A DNA stretch of 64,000 bases from Streptomyces sp. 130. GTDB lineage: Bacteria; Actinomycetota; Actinomycetes; Streptomycetales; Streptomycetaceae. Of this stretch, positions 32,400-42,680 are shown one piece after another; position 1 is the stretch's first letter; every line of letters starts with the position of its first letter. Made by a program: the position numbers and the translations under genes. The notes below the pieces were generated by a model, which searched no databases, was not told the origin of the DNA, and worked only from the letters and a program-made list of their open reading frames with translations. Where the stretch lies: positions 124,001-188,000 of the forward strand of contig NZ_VJNO01000009.1 of NCBI RefSeq assembly GCF_007096885.1. The letters run 5' to 3'.

Positions 32400-33134
32400 T
32401 CAGCCGCCCACCGCCACGCCGAACAGGGCGCCCAGCCCGTACGTGATCGCGGCGGCCGCGCCGCCCAGCGCCAGCTGGCGCAGTCCGCTGAACCACCAGC
32501 TGCGAGCGGTCACCCGGGCCACCACCGCGCCGCAGCCGAACAGTCCGGCGAGCGCCAGCAGCACGGCCGGCCACAGCGCGTCGGCCCCCAGCAGGAACGG
32601 CAGCACCGGCAGCAGGGCGCCGAGCGCGAAGGCGCCGAACGAGGAGAAGGCGGCCACCAGGGGCGACGGCAGGTCGCCCGGGTCGATGCCCAGCTCCTCG
32701 CGGGCGTGTATCTCGAGGGCCTGCTCCGGGTCGCGCGAGAGCTGGCGGGCGACCTCGCGGGCGAGACCCGGTTCGACGCCCCGGGACTCGTAGAGCGCGG
32801 CGAGCTCCCGCTCCTCGTCCGCCGGGTGCTTGCGCAGTTCGCGCCGCTCGACGTCCAGCTCGGCCTCGACCAGTTCGCGCTGGGAGGCCACGGAGGTGTA
32901 TTCGCCGGCCGCCATGGAGAAGGCACCGGCGGCCAGTCCGGCGAGGCCGGTGATGACGATGGTGCGGTGCGAGACGTCGCCGCCGGCGACACCGGTCATC
33001 AGGGCCAGGTTGGAGACGAGCCCGTCCATCGCGCCGAAGACCGCGGGACGCAGCCAGCCGCCGTTGACGTCACGGTGGGTGTGGTTGTCCCGGTGCGCCT
33101 CGTGCAGTACGGCGTCGGTCTCGATGATGGCCAC
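32400..33134 (-). CDS. VIT1/CCC1-family membrane transporter
   Basis: A 244-residue protein starting at GTG 33134, chosen for the purine-rich GAGAGGGG upstream; the frame is open further but without a good start. The first segment GGWLRPAVFGAMDGLVSNLALMTGV is the family signature, followed by a second segment with SMAAGEYTSVASQRE and a long cytoplasmic helical hairpin rich in Glu (metal-binding region ELVEAELDVERRELRKHPADEERE), then two to three C-terminal segments. It probably moves Fe2+ or Mn2+. It is divergent from the ADP-ribosylglycohydrolase operon. Confidence 0.9.
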   Translation of the reverse strand: MAIIETDAVLHEAHRDNHTHRDVNGGWLRPAVFGAMDGLVSNLALMTGVAGGDVSHRTIVITGLAGLAAGAFSMAAGEYTSVASQRELVEAELDVERRELRKHPADEERELAALYESRGVEPGLAREVARQLSRDPEQALEIHAREELGIDPGDLPSPLVAAFSSFGAFALGALLPVLPFLLGADALWPAVLLALAGLFGCGAVVARVTARSWWFSGLRQLALGGAAAAITYGLGALFGVAVGG

Positions 33135-33236
33135 GGCTCGCCCCTCTCCCCTGGTCCGGGTGGTCCGGAGACGGGCCTCCTGCCCGCCCGCCTCCGCTCG
33201 ACACCATCGAAAGTACGCACGAAGAATCGCCGCTGC

Positions 33237-33296
33237 CAGCAAGGCAGGCCGTACTTACCACCCTGCGTAACCGGATAGGTACGGCTTCCCTTGCTG
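33237..33296. repeat. Long imperfect inverted repeat in the divergent VIT/ARH promoter region
   Basis: Left arm CAGCAAGG (33237-33244) and GCCGTAC (33248-33254); right arm GTACGGC (33279-33285) and CCTTGCTG (33289-33296). Fifteen of eighteen positions pair, with a 3-nt mismatch and a 24-nt centre. It could be a double operator or a structured leader. Confidence 0.6.
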
Positions 33297-33358: not shown

Positions 33359-33374
33359 GTGGAACGGATTCCAC
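33359..33374. promoter_or_regulatory. Operator-like palindrome upstream of the ARH operon
   Basis: Perfect inverted repeat GTGGAA-CGGA-TTCCAC, 41 bp upstream of the ATG at 33416. An upstream in-frame GTG at 33359 falls inside it, another reason to prefer the ATG. Confidence 0.55.
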
Positions 33375-33415: not shown

Positions 33416-34980
33416 ATGGAGACGGTCGCAGGAAATCCGACGGCACCGCGGGCGGGCGGCACACATACGGCACGGCTTCCGGACGAGCCGGCCCCCGGCG
33501 GGCCGCTCGACCGGGCCAGGGGCGCGCTGCTCGGCCTCGCGGCCGGAGACGCGCTCGGCGCCCCGGCGGAGAACATGCGGCCCTCCGAGATCCGCCGCCG
33601 CTGGGGCCGGATCGAGGGCTTCGTCAGCGACGACCCGGCGGGCACCGACGACACGGAGTACGCGATCTTCTCCGGGCTGCTGCTGGCCCGGCACGGCTCG
33701 GAGCTCACCGTCACCGATGTCGAGCGGGCCTGGCGGCTGTGGATCGCCGACCTGGACGAGGGGCCGTTCCGGGGCGCCGGCTTCAGCGAGCGCGGCACGC
33801 TGGAGAACCTGCGCCGGGGCCTGGCCGCCCCGATCTCCGCCCAGCACCGGCACGCCTGGAGCGACGGCCTGGCGATGCGGGCCGCGCCCTTCGGCGTCTT
33901 CGCGGCCGGACGCCCCGCCGAGGCGGCCCGGCTGGTCGCGGTCGACGGCCGGGTCAGCCATGAGGGCGAGGGGATCTACGGGGGCCAGGCGGTGGCCGCC
34001 GGGGTGGCCGCCGCGATGACCGGCGCCTCGGTGACCTCGGTGATCGCCGCCGCGCTCTCGGTCGTCCCGATGGACTCCTGGACGGCCCGCTCCCTGCGCC
34101 GCGCGGTGACGGCGGCGCTGCGGCCGTACCCCGACCGCCTCACCGGCGAACGCGCGGTCCGCTCGGCCGTGGTCGTCGGCGGCTACCCGTGGACCGACCT
34201 GGCCCCCGAGGCGGTCGGTCTGGCCTTCGGCGCCTTCGCGGCGGCCCGCGGCGACTTCCGTACGGCGGTGCTGATGGCGGTCAACATGGGCCGCGACGCC
34301 GACACGACGGCCGCGGTGGCGGGGGCCCTGTCCGGCGCCCTGCACGGCGCGTCGGCGATCCCCCGCCTCTGGGCCGACGCGATCGGCCCGGTACGCGGCA
34401 GCTGCCTGCCGTCGATGCGGGGGTACCACGTGCTGGACATCGCGGACCTGCTGGCGGGGGCCGCCGGGGCGGCGACGACGGGCCGGCCCCCGCAGCGTGC
34501 GCCGGGGGCGCCGGAGGCCGGTCGGGCGGCGGCCGACGCTCCGGACCGGACAGGCCCGGACGAACCGGCGGACCACCGCGCAACGAGGAGCAACACACCC
34601 GCACCCCCCCCCCCCCGCGCCGCCCCCGCAACGGCACCCGGCGAGGGGCCGGCCCACCACGCGGACCCCGGCGAACCGGCGGGCTGCCGCCCGGCAAGCA
34701 GCAGCACCCCCGCGCCCACCCCCCACCACGCCACCCGGCAACAGCACCCGGCGAACAACCGACCCACCACACGGACCCCGGCGAACCAGCCAGCCGCCGC
34801 ACGACAAGAAGCAACACACCCGCCACCCCTCCCCACCACGCCACCCCGGCAACGACACCCGGCGAAGAGCCGCCCCACGCGGCGCGGCACGCGGATCCCC
34901 GCGGGCCGGGCGGCCGTGCCCCGGTCGGGGGCGCGCGGTCGTGTGCCCGCCCCGCCGGCACCGGGGCGGTGGCGCGATGA
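33416..34980 (+). CDS. ADP-ribosylglycohydrolase-family protein 1, with a 1-bp frameshift in its repeat tail
   Basis: The first gene of a seven-gene operon. It starts at ATG 33416 with GAAGGG upstream. The ~350-residue catalytic domain keeps the metal motifs of the family: AAGDALGAP and TDDTEYA at the N-terminal side and MGRDADTTAAVAGALSGALHG at the C-terminal side. It is followed by a Pro/Thr/His-rich tail coded by a 111-bp repeat. One copy lacks a C at about 34733-34736; with that base restored the frame runs to TGA 34978-34980, overlapping the next ATG (ATGA) and giving 521 residues. As written, the frame instead runs on to 36109 over the next gene. It may be a sequencing error or a true frameshift. 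By family it removes ADP-ribose or splits a related N-glycoside. Confidence 0.85.
34545..34880 (+). repeat. Tandem 111-bp repeats coding a Pro/Thr/His-rich tail
   Basis: About three imperfect copies. The shared ACCCGGCGA falls at 34636, 34746 and 34857, giving spacings of 110 and 111 bp. The copies diverge by 15-25% by eye. Translated units read like PATAPGEQPTHHTDPGEPA. A C run (34604-34616) lies in an earlier copy. Confidence 0.8.
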
Positions 34981-36197
34981 GCGCCCCGCGGCGCGCCCGC
35001 GTCGAAGGGCTGCTCATCGGGCTGGCCGCGGGCGACGCCGCCGGGTGGCCCGCGGCCCGGCACCGGGCGGCCCGGATGCCGGAGTGGACCCGGCGCCTGA
35101 CCCGGGAGCTGGACACCTTCGCCGAGCAGAACGCGACGACCACGCTCCCCGTGCCCATCGCGCTCAACCAGCCCCCCGAGCCACTGCGGCTCGGGCCGTC
35201 CGACGACGCCGAGTGGGCGGCGTTCGCGGCGGAGACCGTGCTCGGGGCCGCGCCCGGCGCGCGCGACGCCCAGGTGCGCGCCGCCGTGGCCGGGGCCTGG
35301 AACGCCCTCGCCGCCGAGGTCGCCGCCGCCGCGGCGCGGGCGACCGAGGTGGAGGCGGCCGTGCTGCCGTTGCGGGCACGGATCTCGGTGCGGGCCGGGC
35401 TCGGAAACCTCGCCGCCGGGCTTCGGCCGCCCGCCACCGGGCACGACAACCCGCACTACTTCGACGACGCGGCGTGCGTACGGGCGGCCGTGCTGGCGGT
35501 CGTCCACCCGGGCGACCCGCACGCGGCGGCGGAGCTCGCGGAGTTCGACGCGCGCTTCACGCAGGACGGCGACGGGGTGCACGGGGCGCGGGCGATGGCC
35601 GCCGCGAGCGCCGAGGCGCTGGGCGGGGCGGACGTGGAGACGGCCGTGAACGCCGCGCTGGCCCAGCTCCCCGACGGCACCGAGATCGCCCGCAACGCGG
35701 CCCACGCGGTCCGGATCGCCCGGGAGTTCGCCGGGGAACGGGCCGGGGCGTTCGCGCTCGTCCCGGTCCTGGAGCACCAGATCGTGGACCACGTCTACAG
35801 CTACGGGATCGCCGCCGCCGAGACCGTACCGGTCGCCCTCGCGCTGGCCACCGCGTCCCGGGGCGACCTCGCGCAGGCCGTGCCCGCGGCGGCCTGCCTG
35901 TCCCGGGTGGCGGACTCCGCGCCCGCCCTGGCCGGCGCGCTGACCGGGGCACTGGGCTCCATCGGCTCCGTGCCCGACGGCTGGCGCGAGACCTGCCGGA
36001 CGCTGGCCGGGTGCGCGCTGCCCCGGTTCGCGGGCACGGATCTGCTGGAACTCGCCGGGCTGCTGGCAGACACGGAACCGGCCCCCCTGGGTGGACAATT
36101 CGGACATGACCTCCACAGTGCCCCTGGCGCCCACGACGTCCCCCTCCCCCACGACAGCCACGACGCCCACGACCCCGCAGGGGCCCGCGCTCGATGA
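34977..36197 (+). CDS. ADP-ribosylglycohydrolase-family protein 2, with degenerate metal site
   Basis: A 406-residue paralogue starting at ATG 34977. It has the N-terminal GLLIGLAAGDAAGWP and a SDDAEWAAF block in place of TDDT, and the family's helical core. At the C-terminal motif it reads SRVADSAPALAGALTGALG where the family has GRDxDS: the first metal-binding Asp is replaced (Val) and only the second remains. It may be inactive, or use another arrangement, or partner an active paralogue. It is coupled to gene 1 by ATGA, and its own end overlaps the next start by 92 bp. Confidence 0.85.
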   Translation: MSAPRRARVEGLLIGLAAGDAAGWPAARHRAARMPEWTRRLTRELDTFAEQNATTTLPVPIALNQPPEPLRLGPSDDAEWAAFAAETVLGAAPGARDAQVRAAVAGAWNALAAEVAAAAARATEVEAAVLPLRARISVRAGLGNLAAGLRPPATGHDNPHYFDDAACVRAAVLAVVHPGDPHAAAELAEFDARFTQDGDGVHGARAMAAASAEALGGADVETAVNAALAQLPDGTEIARNAAHAVRIAREFAGERAGAFALVPVLEHQIVDHVYSYGIAAAETVPVALALATASRGDLAQAVPAAACLSRVADSAPALAGALTGALGSIGSVPDGWRETCRTLAGCALPRFAGTDLLELAGLLADTEPAPLGGQFGHDLHSAPGAHDVPLPHDSHDAHDPAGARAR

Positions 36198-37326
36198 CCG
36201 GATCGCCGGCGCCCTCGTCGGCGCCGCCGTCGGCGACGCGCTGGGCGGCCCGGTCGAGGGCCGCTCCCCCGAGCAGATCACGGCCCGGCACGGCGGCAGG
36301 ATCACCGGGATCGTCGGCCCCTGGGACGGCGACGACTGGCGGACCGCCCGCCCGATCGCCCCGTACCACAAGGGAGACGGGCACGTCACCGACGACACCC
36401 TGATGACGCACGCGCTGGTCCGGGTGTACGGGAAGGTGCGCGGCCATCTCGACGCGTACGCGGTCGCCGACCACCTCGTACCGGAGATGATCGGCGAACC
36501 GCGCTGGATTCCCGAGCTGGAGGCCGAGGCGCTGCCGCTGCAGCGGGTGTTCCTCGCGGAGAAGTGGATCGTCGCCCGGCTGCACTACGGCCACGTCGAC
36601 CCGCGCGAGGCGGGCTGCGGAAACATCGTCAACTGCGGGGCGGCGATGTACATGGCCCCGGTCGGTCTGGTGAACGCCGCCCATCCGCAGGCGGCGTACG
36701 CCGAGGCGATCGACGTCGCCGGGGCCCATCAGTCGAGTTACGGCCGGGAGGCGGCGGGCGTCTTCGCGGCGGGGGTGGCCGCCGCCTGCGCGCCCGGGGC
36801 GACGCCCGCTTCGGTCGTGGAGGCGTGCCTGTCGCTCGCCAAGGACGGCACCCGGGCCGCGATCGAGGCCGTCTGCGAGGCGGCCTCCCGCCACCGGGAC
36901 GTGGAGTCGGCGCTCGTCCCGCTGCGCGCGGCCGTCGCCCCCTTCGACACCGTCGGCCCCGACTACCGCGCGCCCTCGCTCGGCGCCCGGCGGCCGTCCC
37001 GGCTGCACGCGATCGAGGAGCTGCCGGTCGCCCTCGGCATGCTGCTGGCCGCCGGCGGGGACTACCGGCAGGCGGTCCTCGGCTCGGTCAACTACGGCCG
37101 CGACTGCGACTCGATCGCCACGATGAGCGGCGCGCTCGCGGGCGCCCTGCACGGTGAGAGCGCCGTGCCCGCCGACTGGGCGGCCACCGTCGCCGAGGCC
37201 AGCCGCCTCGATCTGCGCGCCCCGGCCCGGACCCTGGCCGAGGTGGCCCGTGAGGTGTTCGCGCGGGACACCGCCCGCCGCCGGGCCCACGAGTCCGCGT
37301 TCGCCACGCTGGCGGGCACCCCGTGA
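36106..37326 (+). CDS. ADP-ribosylglycohydrolase-family protein 3
   Basis: A 406-residue paralogue starting at ATG 36106 (GTG 36091 is an alternative; no in-frame start lies after the upstream stop). Motifs are complete: GALVGAAVGDALGGPVEG, DDTLMTHALVRVYG, GCGNIVNCGAAMYM, HQSSYGREAAG and NYGRDCDSIATMSGALAGALHG, so two-metal catalysis is likely. It is the most canonical of the four. The Thr/Pro-rich first 30 residues overlap the end of gene 2. The stop overlaps the next GTG (GTGA). Confidence 0.92.
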   Translation: MTSTVPLAPTTSPSPTTATTPTTPQGPALDDRIAGALVGAAVGDALGGPVEGRSPEQITARHGGRITGIVGPWDGDDWRTARPIAPYHKGDGHVTDDTLMTHALVRVYGKVRGHLDAYAVADHLVPEMIGEPRWIPELEAEALPLQRVFLAEKWIVARLHYGHVDPREAGCGNIVNCGAAMYMAPVGLVNAAHPQAAYAEAIDVAGAHQSSYGREAAGVFAAGVAAACAPGATPASVVEACLSLAKDGTRAAIEAVCEAASRHRDVESALVPLRAAVAPFDTVGPDYRAPSLGARRPSRLHAIEELPVALGMLLAAGGDYRQAVLGSVNYGRDCDSIATMSGALAGALHGESAVPADWAATVAEASRLDLRAPARTLAEVAREVFARDTARRRAHESAFATLAGTP

Positions 37327-38705
37327 CCACGGCGGTGCGGGTGACCTGGGTGCAGCCGGAGGACCTGGTGGGCCACGAGCTCCGGCAGGCCGCCGAGGAC
37401 GGCCGCGACGCCCGCGACATCGCCCGCCGGTGGTACGAGGCCGGCGGACACCCCGCCCCCGAGCGCGCCGGCGCCTCCGCCCCGGGCACCCCGCCGGGGC
37501 TGCGCGCGGTCGCCGAACGGCTGCTGGACGAACTCGCCCTGCTGGAGTCCCCGCTGGCCGGTGACGAGCCGGACGGCCTGGACGCGATCCGGGCCGCCTG
37601 CCCGCAGTGGCCGCACACCGTGCCGGGCCGCCCGGCGCCCGGCCGGGAGCGGCTGCACGCCGCCTGGCTGGGCCGCGCCGCCGGCTGCCTGCTGGGCAAG
37701 CCGGTCGAGAAGCTGCCCCTGGAGGGGATCCGCGCCCTGGCCCGGGCCACCGGCAACTGGCCGCTGCGCACCTGGTTCACCGCCCGGGGCCTGCCCGCGC
37801 CACTGGCCGCCGCCTACCCGTGGAACAGGCGCTCCGCGCCCACCTCGCTCGCCGAGAACATCGACGGGATGCCCGAGGACGACGACCTCAACCACCCGCT
37901 GCTCGCCCTGCTGCTGCTCCAGCGGCACGGCACCGCCTTCACCACCGCGGACCTGGCCCGGCTGTGGCTGGACGAGCTGCCGGCCGGGCGTACGTTCACC
38001 GCCGAGCGGATCGCGTACCGCAATCTGCTCGACGGCATCGAGCCCCCGGACACCGCCCGCCACCGCAACCCGTTCCGGGAGTGGATCGGCGCGCAGATCC
38101 GGGCCGACGCGCACGGCTGGACCCGGCCCGGCGACCCGGCGGGCGCCGCGGAGCAGGCGTACCGCGACGCGGTCCTCACCCACACCGGGAACGGCGTCTA
38201 CGGCGCGATGTTCACCGCGGCGGCGCTGGCCGAGGCGGCCACCGGCGAGACCGATGTGCACGGCTGCCTGGCCACCGGGCTGCGCGTGGTGCCGCCGCGC
38301 TCGCGGTTCGCGGCGGCGGTACGGGACGGCATCGCGACCGCCCGCGAGGAGCGGGACTTCGATACGGTCGTGGACCGGCTGCACGCGGCGTACGGCGGGT
38401 ATCACTGGGTGCATGTGCTGCCCAACGCGGCCGTGCTGGCCGCCGCCCTCACCCACGCCGACGGCGACTTCACCGGTTCGGTCTGCAAGGCGGTGTCCGG
38501 CGGCTGGGACACCGACTCCAACGGCGCGACCGCCGGTTCGCTCGCCGGACTGCTCGCCGGGCGGCCGGACGCGCTGCCCGAACAGTGGACGGCCCCGCTG
38601 AAGAACCGGCTCGCCACGTCCGTCCCCGGCTTCGACGGGGCCGGCTTCGACACCCTGGCCGACCTGACCCACCGGCTCACCCACGAGGAGGCACTCCGCC
38701 CATGA
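37323..38705 (+). CDS. ADP-ribosylglycohydrolase-family protein 4, N-terminally extended
   Basis: A 460-residue paralogue starting at GTG 37323. The first ~110 residues form an extra N-terminal region (TAVRVTWVQPEDLVGHEL), and the hydrolase core begins at AAWLGRAAGCLLGKPVEK. Metal motifs are MPEDDDLNHPLL and GGWDTDSNGATAGSLAGLLAG, both with the required aspartates. It shares little with the other three beyond these motifs, so the four are not recent duplicates and may act on different substrates. The stop overlaps the kinase start (ATGA). Confidence 0.9.
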   Translation: MTTAVRVTWVQPEDLVGHELRQAAEDGRDARDIARRWYEAGGHPAPERAGASAPGTPPGLRAVAERLLDELALLESPLAGDEPDGLDAIRAACPQWPHTVPGRPAPGRERLHAAWLGRAAGCLLGKPVEKLPLEGIRALARATGNWPLRTWFTARGLPAPLAAAYPWNRRSAPTSLAENIDGMPEDDDLNHPLLALLLLQRHGTAFTTADLARLWLDELPAGRTFTAERIAYRNLLDGIEPPDTARHRNPFREWIGAQIRADAHGWTRPGDPAGAAEQAYRDAVLTHTGNGVYGAMFTAAALAEAATGETDVHGCLATGLRVVPPRSRFAAAVRDGIATAREERDFDTVVDRLHAAYGGYHWVHVLPNAAVLAAALTHADGDFTGSVCKAVSGGWDTDSNGATAGSLAGLLAGRPDALPEQWTAPLKNRLATSVPGFDGAGFDTLADLTHRLTHEEALRP

Positions 38706-39586
38706 CCAGAGTCGCGGTGCTCGGCAGCACCAATATGGATCTTGTGGCCTACGTCGACCGGGCTCCGGAGCGCGGCCAGACCGTCACCGGACGGGAATTC
38801 CGCACCGTCCCCGGCGGCAAGGGCGCCAACCAGGCCGTGGCGGCCGCCCGCGCGGGCGGTGACGTGCTGATGATCGGCGCGGTCGGCGACGACGAGTACG
38901 GCGTACGGATGCGGGAGAATCTGGAGCACTCCGGCGTCGACACCGACCTGCTGCACACCGCCGAGGGCCCCAGCGGCACCGCGCACATCGTGGTCGACGC
39001 CAAGGGCTCCAACGCGATCGTCGTCATCCCCGGCGCCAACGGCACCGTCACCGCGCTCGGGCCGGGCGAGATGGCCGCCATCGCCGAGGCGGATCTGCTG
39101 CTGCTCCAGCTGGAGCTGCCGATGTCGGCGGTGATCGAGGGCGCCCGCGCCGGCCACGCCCAGGGCGTACGGACGGTGCTCACCCCCTCCCCTGTGCGGG
39201 AGCTGCCCTCCGAACTCCTGGACCACGTCGACCTGCTGGTCCCCAACGAGCACGAGGCGGCCGAGCTGTCCGGCTACGACGACCCGCACGCGGCGGCGGA
39301 GATCCTGCTCGGCCGGGTCCCCGCGGTGCTCATCACGCTCGGCGCGAAGGGCAGCCTGTACGCGGCCCGGGGCAGCCGGACCATCCACTTCCCGGCCCCG
39401 GACGTCACCGCCGTCGACACCACCGGCGCCGGGGACACCTTCGTCGGCACCCTGGCCGTGGCGCTCGGCGAGGGGCGCCCGATTCCGCAGGCCGTCGCCT
39501 GGGCCTCGGCCGCCGCCTCGCTCTGCGTACAGAAACCGGGCGCCTCGGTCTCCATGCCGTACCGCAGCGAAATCGACGGCGCGTGA
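38702..39586 (+). CDS. PfkB-family carbohydrate kinase (ribokinase-like)
   Basis: A 294-residue kinase starting at ATG 38702. Ribokinase marks are NMDLVAYVDRAPERGQTV, GGKGANQAVAAARAG, VPNEHEAAELSG, and the anion-hole/catalytic-base motif DTTGAGDTFVGTLAVAL. It phosphorylates ribose or a nucleoside-like sugar with ATP. Its place directly after glycohydrolases recalls E. coli yegU-yegV, where an ADP-ribosylglycohydrolase homologue pairs with a PfkB kinase. Ribose freed from an N-glycoside is a plausible substrate. Confidence 0.92.
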   Translation: MTRVAVLGSTNMDLVAYVDRAPERGQTVTGREFRTVPGGKGANQAVAAARAGGDVLMIGAVGDDEYGVRMRENLEHSGVDTDLLHTAEGPSGTAHIVVDAKGSNAIVVIPGANGTVTALGPGEMAAIAEADLLLLQLELPMSAVIEGARAGHAQGVRTVLTPSPVRELPSELLDHVDLLVPNEHEAAELSGYDDPHAAAEILLGRVPAVLITLGAKGSLYAARGSRTIHFPAPDVTAVDTTGAGDTFVGTLAVALGEGRPIPQAVAWASAAASLCVQKPGASVSMPYRSEIDGA

Positions 39587-40782
39587 GCGCCCCCGCGGCG
39601 CCGCCGCTCACCGGACTGCGGGTGGTCGATCTCGCCACGCTCTTCGCGGGCCCGCTCTGCGCGACGATGCTGGGCGACTTCGGCGCCGAGGTGATCAAGG
39701 TCGAGCACCCGGTGCGCCCGGACCCGTCCCGGGGCCACGGGCCCGCGAAGGACGGGGTGGGCCTGTGGTGGAAGCTCCTCGGCCGCAACAAGCGCAATCT
39801 GACGCTCGACCTCTCCGCGCCGGAGGGCCGCGACCTGCTGCTGCGGCTCGCGGCGGACACCGATGTGATCATCGAGAACTTCCGGCCGGGCACGCTGGAG
39901 CGGTGGGGGCTCGGCCCCGACGAGCTGCACGCGGTCAACCCGCGCCTCGTGCTGGTGCGCGTCACGGGCTTCGGCCAGTACGGCCCGTACTCCCACCGGC
40001 CCGGCTTCGGGACGCTCGCCGAGGCGATGAGCGGCTTCGCGGCGATCACCGGGGAGCCGGACGGGCCGCCGACCCTGCCGCCGTTCGGTCTCGCCGACTC
40101 GATCGCCGCGCTCGCCACGGCGTACGCGGTGATGGCCGCGCTGGCCGGCCGGGACCGGACCGGCGAGGGACAGGTCGTCGACATGGCGATCATCGAGCCG
40201 ATCCTGACCGTGCTCGGCCCGCAGCCGCTCTGGTACGACCAGCTCGGTTACGTACAGCCGCGCACCGGGAACCGGTCGCGCAACAACGCGCCGCGCAACA
40301 CCTACCGCACCTCGGACGGGCAGTGGGTGGCCGTCTCCACCTCCGCGCAGTCCGTCGCGGAGCGGGTGATGCGGCTGGTCGGACGGGCGGACCTGATCGA
40401 GGAGCCGTGGTTCGCCTCGGGCGCGACCCGCGCCGAGCACAGCGACGAGCTGGACGAGGCCGTGGGCCACTGGATCGCCCGGCACAGCCGGGAGGAGGCC
40501 CTGTCCGCGTTCGAGAAGGCGGAGGCCGCCATCGCCCCCATCCACGATGTACGGGACGTGATGGAGGACCCGCAGTACCGGGCCCTGGACTCGGTCACCG
40601 AGGTGGACGACCCGGAGCTCGGCCCGCTGCGGATGCAGAACGTCCTCTTCCGGCTGTCCCGGACCCCGGGCGCGATCCGCTGGACGGGCCGCCCGCACGG
40701 CGCCGACACCGAGGAGATCCTGACCGAGCTGGGGCTGAGCGGGCCCGAGATCTCGGCGCTGCGGGCGGAGCGGGTGCTGTGA
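39583..40782 (+). CDS. Class III CoA-transferase (CaiB/BaiF family)
   Basis: A 399-residue protein starting at GTG 39583 in a GTGA overlap. Signatures are LRVVDLATLFAGPLCATMLGDFGAEVIKVE, RNKRNLTLDLS, and IIENFRPGTLERWG; the catalytic Asp of the family lies in the segment QVVDMAIIEP. It moves CoA between acyl groups, activating a carboxylic acid. Length is usual. Followed by a CitE-like lyase, it suggests that the operon ends in cleavage of an acyl-CoA. Confidence 0.92.
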   Translation: MSAPAAPPLTGLRVVDLATLFAGPLCATMLGDFGAEVIKVEHPVRPDPSRGHGPAKDGVGLWWKLLGRNKRNLTLDLSAPEGRDLLLRLAADTDVIIENFRPGTLERWGLGPDELHAVNPRLVLVRVTGFGQYGPYSHRPGFGTLAEAMSGFAAITGEPDGPPTLPPFGLADSIAALATAYAVMAALAGRDRTGEGQVVDMAIIEPILTVLGPQPLWYDQLGYVQPRTGNRSRNNAPRNTYRTSDGQWVAVSTSAQSVAERVMRLVGRADLIEEPWFASGATRAEHSDELDEAVGHWIARHSREEALSAFEKAEAAIAPIHDVRDVMEDPQYRALDSVTEVDDPELGPLRMQNVLFRLSRTPGAIRWTGRPHGADTEEILTELGLSGPEISALRAERVL

Positions 40783-41591
40783 GCGCGGCGGCCCCCCTCA
40801 CCCTGCTGTACGTGCCCGGTGACCGGCCGGACGTCGTGCGCAAGGCGGCCGGCTCGGGGGCGGACGTGGTGATCGTGGACCTGGAGGACGCGGTCGCCCC
40901 CGACCGCAAGGAGTACGCCCGGGCCGCGACGGTGGAGCTGCTGTCGGACCCGCCGTCCGCCACGGCGCCGCCGCTGCATGTGCGGGTCAACGACGAGGCG
41001 GACGTGCTGGCGCTGGCCGGGCTGCCGGGGCTGGGCGGGCTGCGGCTGCCGAAGATCACCCACGCCGCGTCCGTCCACCGCATCGCGGCGCTGGCCCCCG
41101 GGGTGGCCCTGTGCCCTCTCCTGGAGTCGGCCCTCGGCATCGAGCACGCCTACTCGGTGGCCTCCGCCCACCCCCAGGTCCGCGCCATCGCCCTGGGCGA
41201 GGCGGACCTCCGCGCGGACCTGGGCGTACGGGAGGACGCGGGGCTGGACTGGTCGCGCGGCCGGCTGGTGGTCGCCGCCCGGGCGGCGGGCCTGGCGCCG
41301 CCCGCGCAGTCGGTGTTCGCGGACGTCCGGGACCTGGACGGGCTCTGGTCCTCCTGCGCCCACGGGCGGGCCCTGGGTTTCCTGGGCCGGGCGGCGATCC
41401 ACCCCCGCCAGCTCCCGGTGATCGAACGCGCGTTCCGTCCGACGCCGCAGGAGGTGGAGGCGGCCTGGGAGATCGTGGAGGCGGCCCGCGACCAGGCGGG
41501 GGCCCAGGCCCTTCCGGACGGACGCTTCGTGGACGCGGCGGTGGTCGCGCAGGCGCGGCGGACGCTGGCGCTGGCCCAGCGGAAGCGGTGA
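40779..41591 (+). CDS. CitE-like CoA-ester lyase (HpcH/HpaI family)
   Basis: A 270-residue TIM-barrel protein starting at GTG 40779 in a GTGA overlap. It begins LLYVPGDRPDVVRKA, with the metal-binding VIVDLEDAVAPDRK and the family's LRLPKITH, CPLLESALGIEHAY, LGEADLRADLG and GRAAIHPRQLPVIERAF. Enzymes of this type split malyl-, citramalyl- or 3-hydroxyacyl-CoA into acetyl-CoA or propionyl-CoA plus an oxoacid. It is the last gene of the operon; a strong hairpin begins 60 bp later. Confidence 0.92.
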   Translation: MSAAAPLTLLYVPGDRPDVVRKAAGSGADVVIVDLEDAVAPDRKEYARAATVELLSDPPSATAPPLHVRVNDEADVLALAGLPGLGGLRLPKITHAASVHRIAALAPGVALCPLLESALGIEHAYSVASAHPQVRAIALGEADLRADLGVREDAGLDWSRGRLVVAARAAGLAPPAQSVFADVRDLDGLWSSCAHGRALGFLGRAAIHPRQLPVIERAFRPTPQEVEAAWEIVEAARDQAGAQALPDGRFVDAAVVAQARRTLALAQRKR

Positions 41592-41616
41592 CCTGGCGCT
41601 CCGCCCGACCGCTTCG

Positions 41617-41630
41617 TCCTCAATCGCCGG
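41617..41630 (-). repeat. Second copy of the CCGGCGATTGAGGA element
   Basis: TCCTCAATCGCCGG is the exact complement of the core at 20946-20959. It lies in the short gap between the CitE-like gene and its terminator. Flanks partly agree (AAGCCC before the core in both). Confidence 0.65.
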
Positions 41631-41650
41631 ACGGGCCGGGCTTCACGGCT

Positions 41651-41680
41651 GAGGGGCCGCCGGAATCCCGGCGGCCCCTC
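41651..41680. terminator. Bidirectional terminator between the ARH operon and lgt
   Basis: A perfect 13-bp stem, GAGGGGCCGCCGG (41651-41663) and CCGGCGGCCCCTC (41668-41680), loop AATC. It separates converging genes and should stop both transcripts. Confidence 0.88.
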
Positions 41681-41699
41681 ACTCAGCTTGCGCGCGGCG

Positions 41700-42680
41700 T
41701 CAGCCCTTCGCGGCCTCCGCGGTACCGTCCGCCTTCGGCGCGTCCTCGTCGGCGTCCGCCTTCGGCGCGTCGGCGTCCGCCTCCGCGGCCGCCGGCTCGT
41801 CCGCCTCGGCCTCGTCCGCCTTCTCGTCGGCCTCGTCCGTCTTCTCCGAGGACTCCGGCGCCTCCGGCGCCCCGGGTTCCACGACCTCCTCGCGGCCCGG
41901 CCGGACCTTCGACGAGATCACGATGTACGTCACCGCCAGCACGAACACGATCAGCGCGGTCCACACGTTGAGCCGCAGGCCCAGGATGTGGTGCGCCTCG
42001 TCCACGCGCATGTATTCGATCCACGCGCGCCCCGCGCAGTAGGCCGCGACGTACAGGGCGAACGCCCGGCCGTGGCCCAGCTTGAAGCGGCGGTCGGCCC
42101 AGATCACCAGGACGGCCACCCCGACGCACCACAGCGACTCGTACAGGAAGGTCGGGTGGTAGGTGCCCGCGACCCGGTTCGGGCCCTCGCTGATCTTCAG
42201 CGCCCACGGGACGTCGGTCGCCCTGCCGTACAGCTCCTGGTTGAACCAGTTGCCCCAGCGCCCGCACGCCTGGGCGAGGGCGATGCCGGGGGCGAGGGCG
42301 TCCGCCCAGGCGGGCAGCGGGATTCCGCGGCGGCGGCAGCCGATCCAGGCACCGACCGCGCCCAGCGCGATCGCTCCCCAGATGCCGAGGCCGCCCTGCC
42401 AGATCTTGAAGGCGTCGACCCAGTCCTCACCGTCGCTGAAGTACAGCTGGTAGTCGGTGATGACGTGGTAGAGCCGGCCGCCGACAAGCCCGAAGGGCAC
42501 GGCCCAGACGGCGATGTCGGCGACGGTGCCGGCGGTGCCTCCTCGGGCGACCCAGCGCTTGTTGCCGAACCAGACGGCGACGAAGACACCGATGATGATG
42601 CAGAACGCGTAGCCGCGGAGCGGGATCGGTCCGAGATCGATCACGCCGGTCGACGGGCTGGGAATGTAGGCAAGGTTCAT
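41700..42680 (-). CDS. lgt: Prolipoprotein diacylglyceryl transferase
   Basis: A 326-residue membrane enzyme that attaches diacylglyceryl to the cysteine of lipoprotein precursors. It shows RGYAFCIIIGVFVAVWFG, GGRLYHVITDY, the signature GRWGNWFNQELYGRATD, and late YIVISSK after the last membrane segment. The final ~55 residues are an Asp/Glu/Ala-rich tail (EADEPAAAEADADAPKADAD) that is beyond the core and likely cytosolic. Start is ATG 42680. The next gene upstream is the DsbA-like gene, 114 bp away. Confidence 0.96.
   Translation of the reverse strand: MNLAYIPSPSTGVIDLGPIPLRGYAFCIIIGVFVAVWFGNKRWVARGGTAGTVADIAVWAVPFGLVGGRLYHVITDYQLYFSDGEDWVDAFKIWQGGLGIWGAIALGAVGAWIGCRRRGIPLPAWADALAPGIALAQACGRWGNWFNQELYGRATDVPWALKISEGPNRVAGTYHPTFLYESLWCVGVAVLVIWADRRFKLGHGRAFALYVAAYCAGRAWIEYMRVDEAHHILGLRLNVWTALIVFVLAVTYIVISSKVRPGREEVVEPGAPEAPESSEKTDEADEKADEAEADEPAAAEADADAPKADADEDAPKADGTAEAAKG

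Follow-up and report, generated by a model that had tools for sequence, protein, structure and literature searches.

An operon of ARH-fold hydrolases in soil actinobacteria as a candidate enzyme set for catabolism of an imported sugar conjugate

RESULTS

Gene content and layout of the operon

The 64,000-nt stretch of the Streptomyces sp. 130 genome that was analyzed (here, the window) contains an operon of seven genes, designated G1 to G7, at positions 33416 to 41591. A Pfam search matched the first four to PF03747, the ADP-ribosylglycohydrolase family, and the following three to PfkB, CoA_transf_3, and HpcH_HpaI, all on the + strand. The original prediction, made from this DNA alone, had called seven genes on one strand, encoding four ADP-ribosylglycohydrolases, a PfkB kinase, a coenzyme A (CoA)-transferase, and a CitE-like lyase; the strand and all family calls were borne out. 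Seven PF03747 genes are present in the whole genome, and four of them lie in this operon.

From G2 onward, each gene overlaps the next. G2 (34977 to 36197, 406 amino acids) shares 92 bp (36106 to 36197) with G3 (36106 to 37326, 406 amino acids), and G3 is joined to G4 (37323 to 38705, 460 amino acids) by a GTGA overlap at 37323 to 37326. An ATGA at 38702 to 38705 links G4 to G5 (38702 to 39586, 294 amino acids), followed by GTGA overlaps at 39583 to 39586, leading into G6 (39583 to 40782, 399 amino acids), and at 40779 to 40782, leading into G7 (40779 to 41591, 270 amino acids). Overlaps had been predicted at six junctions; the five between G2 and G7 stood, including the 92-bp one, whereas an overlap of G1 with G2 would require a frame change in G1. 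Similarly, the predicted hydrolase lengths of about 406 to 521 amino acids agree with G2 to G4 but not with the 521 amino acids assigned to G1.

The four ARH-fold proteins

All four hydrolases exceeded the PF03747 cut-off of 26.2 bits, with scores of 206.1, 111.4, 174.2, and 162.3 bits for G1 to G4, respectively. Pairwise identity was 26 to 34% over 361 to 409 columns, which makes the earlier statement that they share little beyond the metal motifs too strong. Enzymes of the ADP-ribosylhydrolase (ARH) fold are described as relying on a Glu, a [T/S]DDT motif, and a DTDT-like motif (PMC6309922). The conserved domain of G1 (33416 to 34459) has the Glu, TDDT, and DADT intact, and the metal motifs of G3 are complete. 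Among aligned relatives, the catalytic Glu was found in 34/37 sequences of G1 (the other three being gaps), 95/95 of G3, and 89/89 of G4, and both Asp residues of DxD[TS] were present in every aligned sequence of these three proteins. The [TS]DDT motif of G1 and the TDDT of G3 are likewise intact. G4, which has an N-terminal extension of about 100 amino acids, carries DDDL in place of TDDT, and the position reads DDDL/I/V in the alignment.

Neither the catalytic Glu (0/32, with two gaps) nor the first Asp of DxD[TS] (0/32) was present in G2 and its operon relatives. Judged by these residues, G2 is probably a pseudoenzyme. The G2-like proteins of two loci with another importer group, L177 and L178 (loci in relatives are given L numbers), retain the Glu and TDDT and lack the first Asp of DxD[TS]; because of this intermediate pattern, the motif decay of G2 looks stepwise.

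The predicted structure of G3 (predicted local distance difference test [pLDDT], 82.1) has the ARH fold. Its top match among solved structures was the ARH-like subunit of a plastid motor complex (Z score, 32.9), followed by MJ1187 (Z, 32.7), ARH3 (Z, 31.3), and DraG (Z, 29.8). A sequence search with G4 against solved structures gave zero matches. None of G1 to G4 reached the models for DraG (TIGR02662; best score, 76 bits versus 337.05) or Tri1 (NF041672; best score, 51.2 bits versus 490).

Kinase, CoA-transferase, and lyase

G5 scored above the cut-off of the ribokinase model TIGR02152 (308.5 versus 299.65 bits), as did its relative in L029 (312.4 bits), and below that of a second ribokinase model, NF008353 (259.1 of 341). 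Its nearest solved chains are ribokinases. G6 is a class III (CaiB/BaiF) CoA-transferase that matched PF02515 with 415.1 bits (cut-off, 23.3), and its solved relatives include succinate-hydroxymethylglutarate CoA-transferase. G7, a CitE/HpcH-type acyl-CoA C-C lyase, matched PF03328 with 103.2 bits (cut-off, 25) and remained below the models for RipC (150 of 375) and CitE (121.2 of 443.4).

Conservation of the operon in relatives

A G4 ortholog (53 to 100% identity) was found in 42 of 246 genomes of the class, and within 12 kb of it, G6 was present in 41 of these 42 genomes and G1 in 39. A profile search with G3 yielded at least 570 confirmed places, and the best 80 of these were used further. 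Gene content was counted by tblastn in the 63 loci of at least 20.5 kb; the 17 shorter loci were left out of these counts. G3, G4, G6, and G7 each occurred in 63/63 loci, and G5 occurred in 46/63. The operon thus counted occurs across soil actinobacteria. No description of it was found in the open-licence literature, as far as titles and the beginnings of abstracts show.

Such a comparison had been suggested with the original prediction, and neighborhoods in which the hydrolases do not travel with the kinase and the CoA genes had been named as evidence against it. The hydrolases do co-occur with the CoA genes in both data sets, whereas the kinase is less constant. The same holds for the pathway first envisaged, in which a sugar is freed and phosphorylated and an acid is degraded as a CoA thioester: its CoA part gained support from gene linkage, and its kinase part did so to a lesser degree. 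The N-linked bond in that proposal is one possibility.

In relatives, genes for a LacI regulator and an ABC importer of the CUT1 type head the operon. The regulator, both permeases, and the solute-binding protein (SBP) were found together in 57/63 loci. Six loci without importer (L117, L124, L125, L136, L132, and L134) have the gene order of the window, with G5 missing from L132 and L134, and in five others (L058 to L060, L072, and L096) G6-G7 is placed ahead of LacI. In L029, the importer genes encode one binding protein of the SBP_bac_1 family and a pair of BPD_transp_1 permeases; a gene for the ATPase was not identified in the group. The LacI protein of L029 is closest to RbsR-type regulators, scoring below every cut-off, and the solved relatives of the SBP are sugar-binding proteins, including arabino-oligosaccharide-binding ones.

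That no transporter lies inside the operon was correct for the window but misleading as a guide, since the importer adjoins the operon in most relatives and is encoded elsewhere in this genome. Three importer genes are located at an unlinked site (G000:C123), with no G1-G7-type hydrolase called alongside; their products are 72, 69, and about 60% (SBP, 60 to 61%) identical to those of L111. A cognate LacI was also sought in this genome, and the best of 21 LacI-type matches was only 40% identical, so the regulator was taken as lost. In Streptomyces of this kind, it seems that the cognate regulator has been lost and the importer relocated. Across 61 genomes of the genus, a G4 ortholog was present in 43 and the SBP in 40. 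One stretch, L164 (9463 to 12475), has only importer genes between lgt (88%) and VIT1 (78%), with zero G1-G7 matches in the stretch; it may be an ancestral site from which the other half was lost.

A glycosidase-like protein in place of G1-G2

A protein with an FGE-sulfatase match (FGE protein) was encoded in 48/63 loci, and G1 together with G2 was found in the other 15; the two were mutually exclusive in all 63. A PF00756 esterase was present in 18/63. The structural model of the FGE protein (pLDDT, 85.8) has an N-terminal barrel that resembles GH13-type glycosidases (Z, 19.3; 4.0 Å over 331 residues; 1jf5). Across 34 sequences of the protein, Asp199, Glu222, and Glu224 never vary. No Pfam glycoside hydrolase match was obtained for the four FGE proteins tested (L029, L018, L129, and L062). 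The C-terminal part gave EgtB matches in addition to the FGE-sulfatase match. With loci counted irrespective of their kinship, this distribution suggests that the G1-G2 pair and the FGE protein serve a similar role. A glycosidase-like protein is exchanged for ARH-fold proteins, and the ARH-fold proteins of this operon would therefore act on glycosidic bonds.

Related enzymes in other neighborhoods

Of the 61 class genomes having a G6 match, 19 had G6 relatives without a G4 ortholog. Twenty stretches were read in which a G6 relative lies outside the operon; MmgE/PrpD and cyclase genes were present in 12 and an allantoinase/dihydropyrimidinase-like amidohydrolase in 12, with 11 stretches common to both sets. 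A TRAP DctM transporter was found beside the G6 relative in three stretches (L150, L151, and L160), and three others (L144, L161, and L162, the last of which is 5 kb long) had neither. The dicarboxylate-type transporter would fit a hydroxy di- or tricarboxylic acid as the substrate of the acid enzymes, and the amidohydrolases would fit an acid derived from an opened ring. The grouping of G6 relatives with MmgE/PrpD and cyclase genes, mostly plus the allantoinase-like amidohydrolase, is that of L143, L145 to L148, and L152 to L158; these gene groups perhaps encode a ring- or amide-opening acid pathway.

Relatives of the hydrolases also occur in other settings. A G4 paralog (46 to 48%) lies near a glycerate kinase relative in 7/7 loci (L050 to L054, L056, and L057; identified by Pfam in one and by tblastn in the rest). 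Glycerate kinase is another hydroxy-acid enzyme, though its proximity may be plain synteny; a glycosyl-glycerate hydrolase is a possible identity for this paralog. In L033, L177, and L178, a divergent G1-G2 pair adjoins a different SBP and permeases, with no G3, G6, or G7 alongside; L033 additionally has a G4 relative and a PfkB kinase, and the L178 genome also has a G6-G7-DctM group (L150), separated from the pair by about 10 kb of the same contig. Finally, L022 (7531 to 13877) groups a G4 relative (43%) with importer permease genes, ThuA, and a nucleoside hydrolase of the inosine-uridine type (202.4 bits).

DISCUSSION

Proposed function

We consider it likely that the operon and its neighbors in relatives form an import-and-catabolism system. 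Comparison of loci shows that relatives carry the regulator of the LacI type and the CUT1-type importer in a single cluster with these enzymes, which in many cases includes a glycosidase-like protein and in some an esterase. In the mechanism that we favor, to which we assign a probability of roughly 0.48 in its full form, the operon encodes the enzymatic half of a pathway that uses an imported sugar conjugate as food and breaks down its acid part via CoA. The importer would take up a glycoside, which the esterase may trim first. G3 and G4 would then cut glycosidic bonds at their metal center, aided by G1-G2, an active enzyme paired with a pseudoenzyme; a TIM-barrel glycosidase would take the place of this pair in other lineages. 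A ribose-like sugar released in this way would be phosphorylated by G5 and enter the pentose phosphate pathway. The released hydroxy di- or tricarboxylic acid, for example, a malate-, citramalate-, or hydroxymethylglutarate-like compound, would receive CoA through G6, and G7 would cleave the thioester to an acyl-CoA and an oxoacid. Possible substrates include a bacillithiol remnant, hydroxymethylglutaryl or malyl glycosides, and nucleoside antibiotics, none of which is favored by the data. At somewhat longer odds, and tentatively, the ARH fold would have been recruited for intracellular glycosidases of imported hydroxy-acid glycosides, able to replace a GH13-like glycosidase, partly in the form of enzyme-pseudoenzyme pairs.

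Several observations weigh against this mechanism. The 63 loci were selected by similarity to one G3 sequence, so that G3 is present in them by construction, and they include near-duplicates, such as those from Cellulosimicrobium. G5 is absent from 17/63; a general ribokinase could stand in for it there. G6 and G7 score below every named equivalog cut-off (best for G6, 243.8 of 750). The replacement of G1-G2 by the FGE protein is not strict: both occur together in six further loci of family f19 (L027, L029 to L032, and L037), and gene-caller maps of 88 loci, some of which are cut contigs, showed 55 with the FGE protein only, 20 with G1 only, six with both, and seven with neither. The solved structures most similar to the G3 model include true ADP-ribosylhydrolases (DraG and ARH3; Z, 28 to 31). 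Co-occurrence of importer and G4 across the 61 genomes of the genus is weak, with 32 having both, 11 G4 only, eight the importer only, and 10 neither (Fisher P = 0.038, kinship ignored). In addition, the MmgE/PrpD, cyclase, and amidohydrolase genes beside G6 relatives (12/20 each) are no less compatible with an acid formed by ring opening.

Alternative explanations

This last point bears on the alternative that the operon salvages an N-riboside or nucleoside-like natural product: the N-ribosyl bond would be cut, a ribokinase would take the ribose, and the acid would derive from the ring. The amidohydrolases by G6 relatives therefore keep this alternative alive, since ring opening would need such genes together with MmgE/PrpD and the cyclase, and the ribokinase-type G5 and the L022 group, in which a G4 relative accompanies a nucleoside hydrolase, ThuA, and importer genes, point the same way. 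We nevertheless consider it unlikely, as no ring-opening amidohydrolase appears among the annotated recurrent genes of the hydrolase operon (some neighbors being unannotated), the solved relatives of the SBP bind sugars, including arabino-oligosaccharides, and the interchangeable partner of G1-G2 is a GH13-like barrel. Less probable still is a transcript shared by unrelated functions, with sugar-conjugate hydrolases on one side and organic-acid catabolism by G6-G7 on the other. It would account for the 19 class genomes with G6 but no G4 ortholog, for the G1-G2 importer groups of L033, L177, and L178 without adjoining acid genes (those of the L178 genome being about 10 kb off), and for the displaced G6-G7 pair ahead of LacI in five loci, but it is difficult to reconcile with the presence of G6 and G7 in all 63 loci and of G6 within 12 kb of G4 in 41 of the 42 class genomes with a G4 ortholog.

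The original prediction had offered removal of ADP-ribose from several targets as its own alternative, and this gained little support, G2 of the four hydrolases being probably inactive. Reversal of ADP-ribosylation on proteins, RNA, or small molecules is what PF03747, the ARH fold, and the metal motifs would suggest, and the published list of eight uncharacterized DraG/ARH homologs of Streptomyces coelicolor includes SCO2028 to SCO2031 (PMC9411070). These are, by gene order only, the probable orthologs of G1 to G4: in the trpCXBA locus, trpX is SCO2038 (PMC5036795), and counting back from it through trpB, trpA, the DsbA-type gene, lgt, G7, and G6 gives SCO2031 to SCO2028 for G4 to G1. The assignment assumes a locus that lacks G5, like L132 and L134, and trpB and trpA were read by eye. 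S. coelicolor is also described as having the ADP-ribosyltransferases SCO2860, SCO3953, and SCO5461 (PMC9411070) and an ARH protein, SCO5809, that takes ADP-ribose off RNA phosphate ends (PMC11833690). On the other side stand the co-occurrence of importer, kinase, and CoA genes with the hydrolases, the failure of every member to attain the DraG or Tri1 cut-off, and the degenerate motifs of G2; moreover, SCO2028 and SCO2030 are reported to have no detectable activity on uridine-ADP-ribose (U-alpha-ADPr) (PMC13036486). This result makes an ADP-ribose role less probable, though U-alpha-ADPr is a single substrate and SCO5809, another ARH of that species, is active on RNA phosphate ends. Taken with the gene neighborhood, such a role is the less likely one, and as an account of the whole operon we regard it as very improbable.

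Relation to known systems

LacI-regulated CUT1 carbohydrate operons are the general kind to which the imported sugar-conjugate system would belong. Like them, it groups LacI, two permeases, an SBP, and intracellular hydrolases; unlike them, its hydrolases have the ARH fold, and a CoA-transferase and an acyl-CoA lyase are added. Modules of a CoA-transferase with a CitE-type lyase, as for itaconate/citramalate or malyl-CoA, activate an acid by CoA transfer before C-C cleavage. The G6-G7 pair suggests the same chemistry, but both proteins score below all equivalog cut-offs for such modules, and in this operon they are combined with sugar genes. With DraG, ARH1, ARH3, and Tri1, the hydrolases share the fold; G1 and G3 also have the Glu, [T/S]DDT, and DxD[T/S] in common with them. 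They differ from these enzymes in scores far below the DraG and Tri1 cut-offs, in the degenerate G2 and the DDDL of G4, and in a genomic setting of import and carbon catabolism. The yegTUV operon of Escherichia coli is similar in having an ARH-family gene beside a PfkB-family kinase and a transporter. However, YegT is described as a member of the major facilitator superfamily with predicted nucleoside:H+ symport activity, and YegW, the regulator, as a GntR family protein, whereas the relatives studied here combine two to four ARH genes with LacI, an ABC importer of the CUT1 type, a CoA-transferase, and a CitE-like lyase.

In the literature, ARH-family genes of Streptomyces appear as putative ADP-ribosyl hydrolases and are read as a sign of lively ADP-ribosylation metabolism (PMC5087735). 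If the proposed function is right, ARH-family enzymes would often be mislabeled as ADP-ribose removers, the fold would have a second role, approachable via the ligand of the binding protein, and an unrecognized nutrient that combines a sugar with a hydroxy-acid would be indicated. If recruitment as glycosidases also holds, SCO2028 to SCO2031, half of the eight DraG/ARH homologs of S. coelicolor, would be carbon-catabolic proteins and not erasers of ADP-ribosylation. The binding protein is a handle for substrate discovery, and the operon offers a concrete lead for the uncharacterized yegTUV operon.

FURTHER FEATURES OF THE WINDOW

The reading of G1 as a 521-amino-acid frame was not borne out. 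The frame that begins with ATG at 33416 stays open to 36109 (897 amino acids) and spans most of G2, out of frame with it; a protein of 521 amino acids with an ATGA junction at 34977 would require a frame change. The GC-by-codon-position signal in G1 weakens past about 34460, where the domain ends, and the low-complexity stretch from 34460 to 34980 (+ strand) is either a tail of G1 or a spacer between G1 and G2. It contains a 110-bp tandem repeat (34555 to 34878; 2.9 copies, 79% matches), whose unit is not a multiple of three, and a run of 13 C (34604 to 34616) between the G1 domain and G2. Repeat and run could be a site of slippage or of misassembly. In relatives, a simple codon-based gene caller placed a 4-bp overlap between G1 and G2 in 10/19 loci and a gap in 9/19.

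Downstream of G7, a 13-bp GC hairpin at 41651 to 41680 (+ strand) is a probable terminator (folding z score for 41589 to 41720, -2.58). It has no T run, and a T-run-based terminator scan detected none after G7; the terminator described earlier as strong is therefore retained as a hairpin but not in its strength. The operon is flanked by a VIT1 gene before it and by lgt and a DsbA-type gene after it, all on the opposite strand.

Upstream of G1, at a distance of about 50 to 60 bp, a GTGG-ACA-ATC-like element is conserved in Streptomyces relatives and forms a near-palindrome in the window (33359 to 33374). A LacI operator common to the operon and the distant importer was considered on the basis of the repeat GTGGAA-CGGA-TTCCAC at this position and was dropped: its core was not found in the other 110 upstream regions examined, which include that of the importer in this genome. 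The VIT1 gene corresponds to the open reading frame at 32400 to 33242 on the - strand. Upstream of it, at 33238 to 33259, a block AGCAAGG..AAGGC....CTTACC is conserved in many aligned relatives and resembles an iron box.

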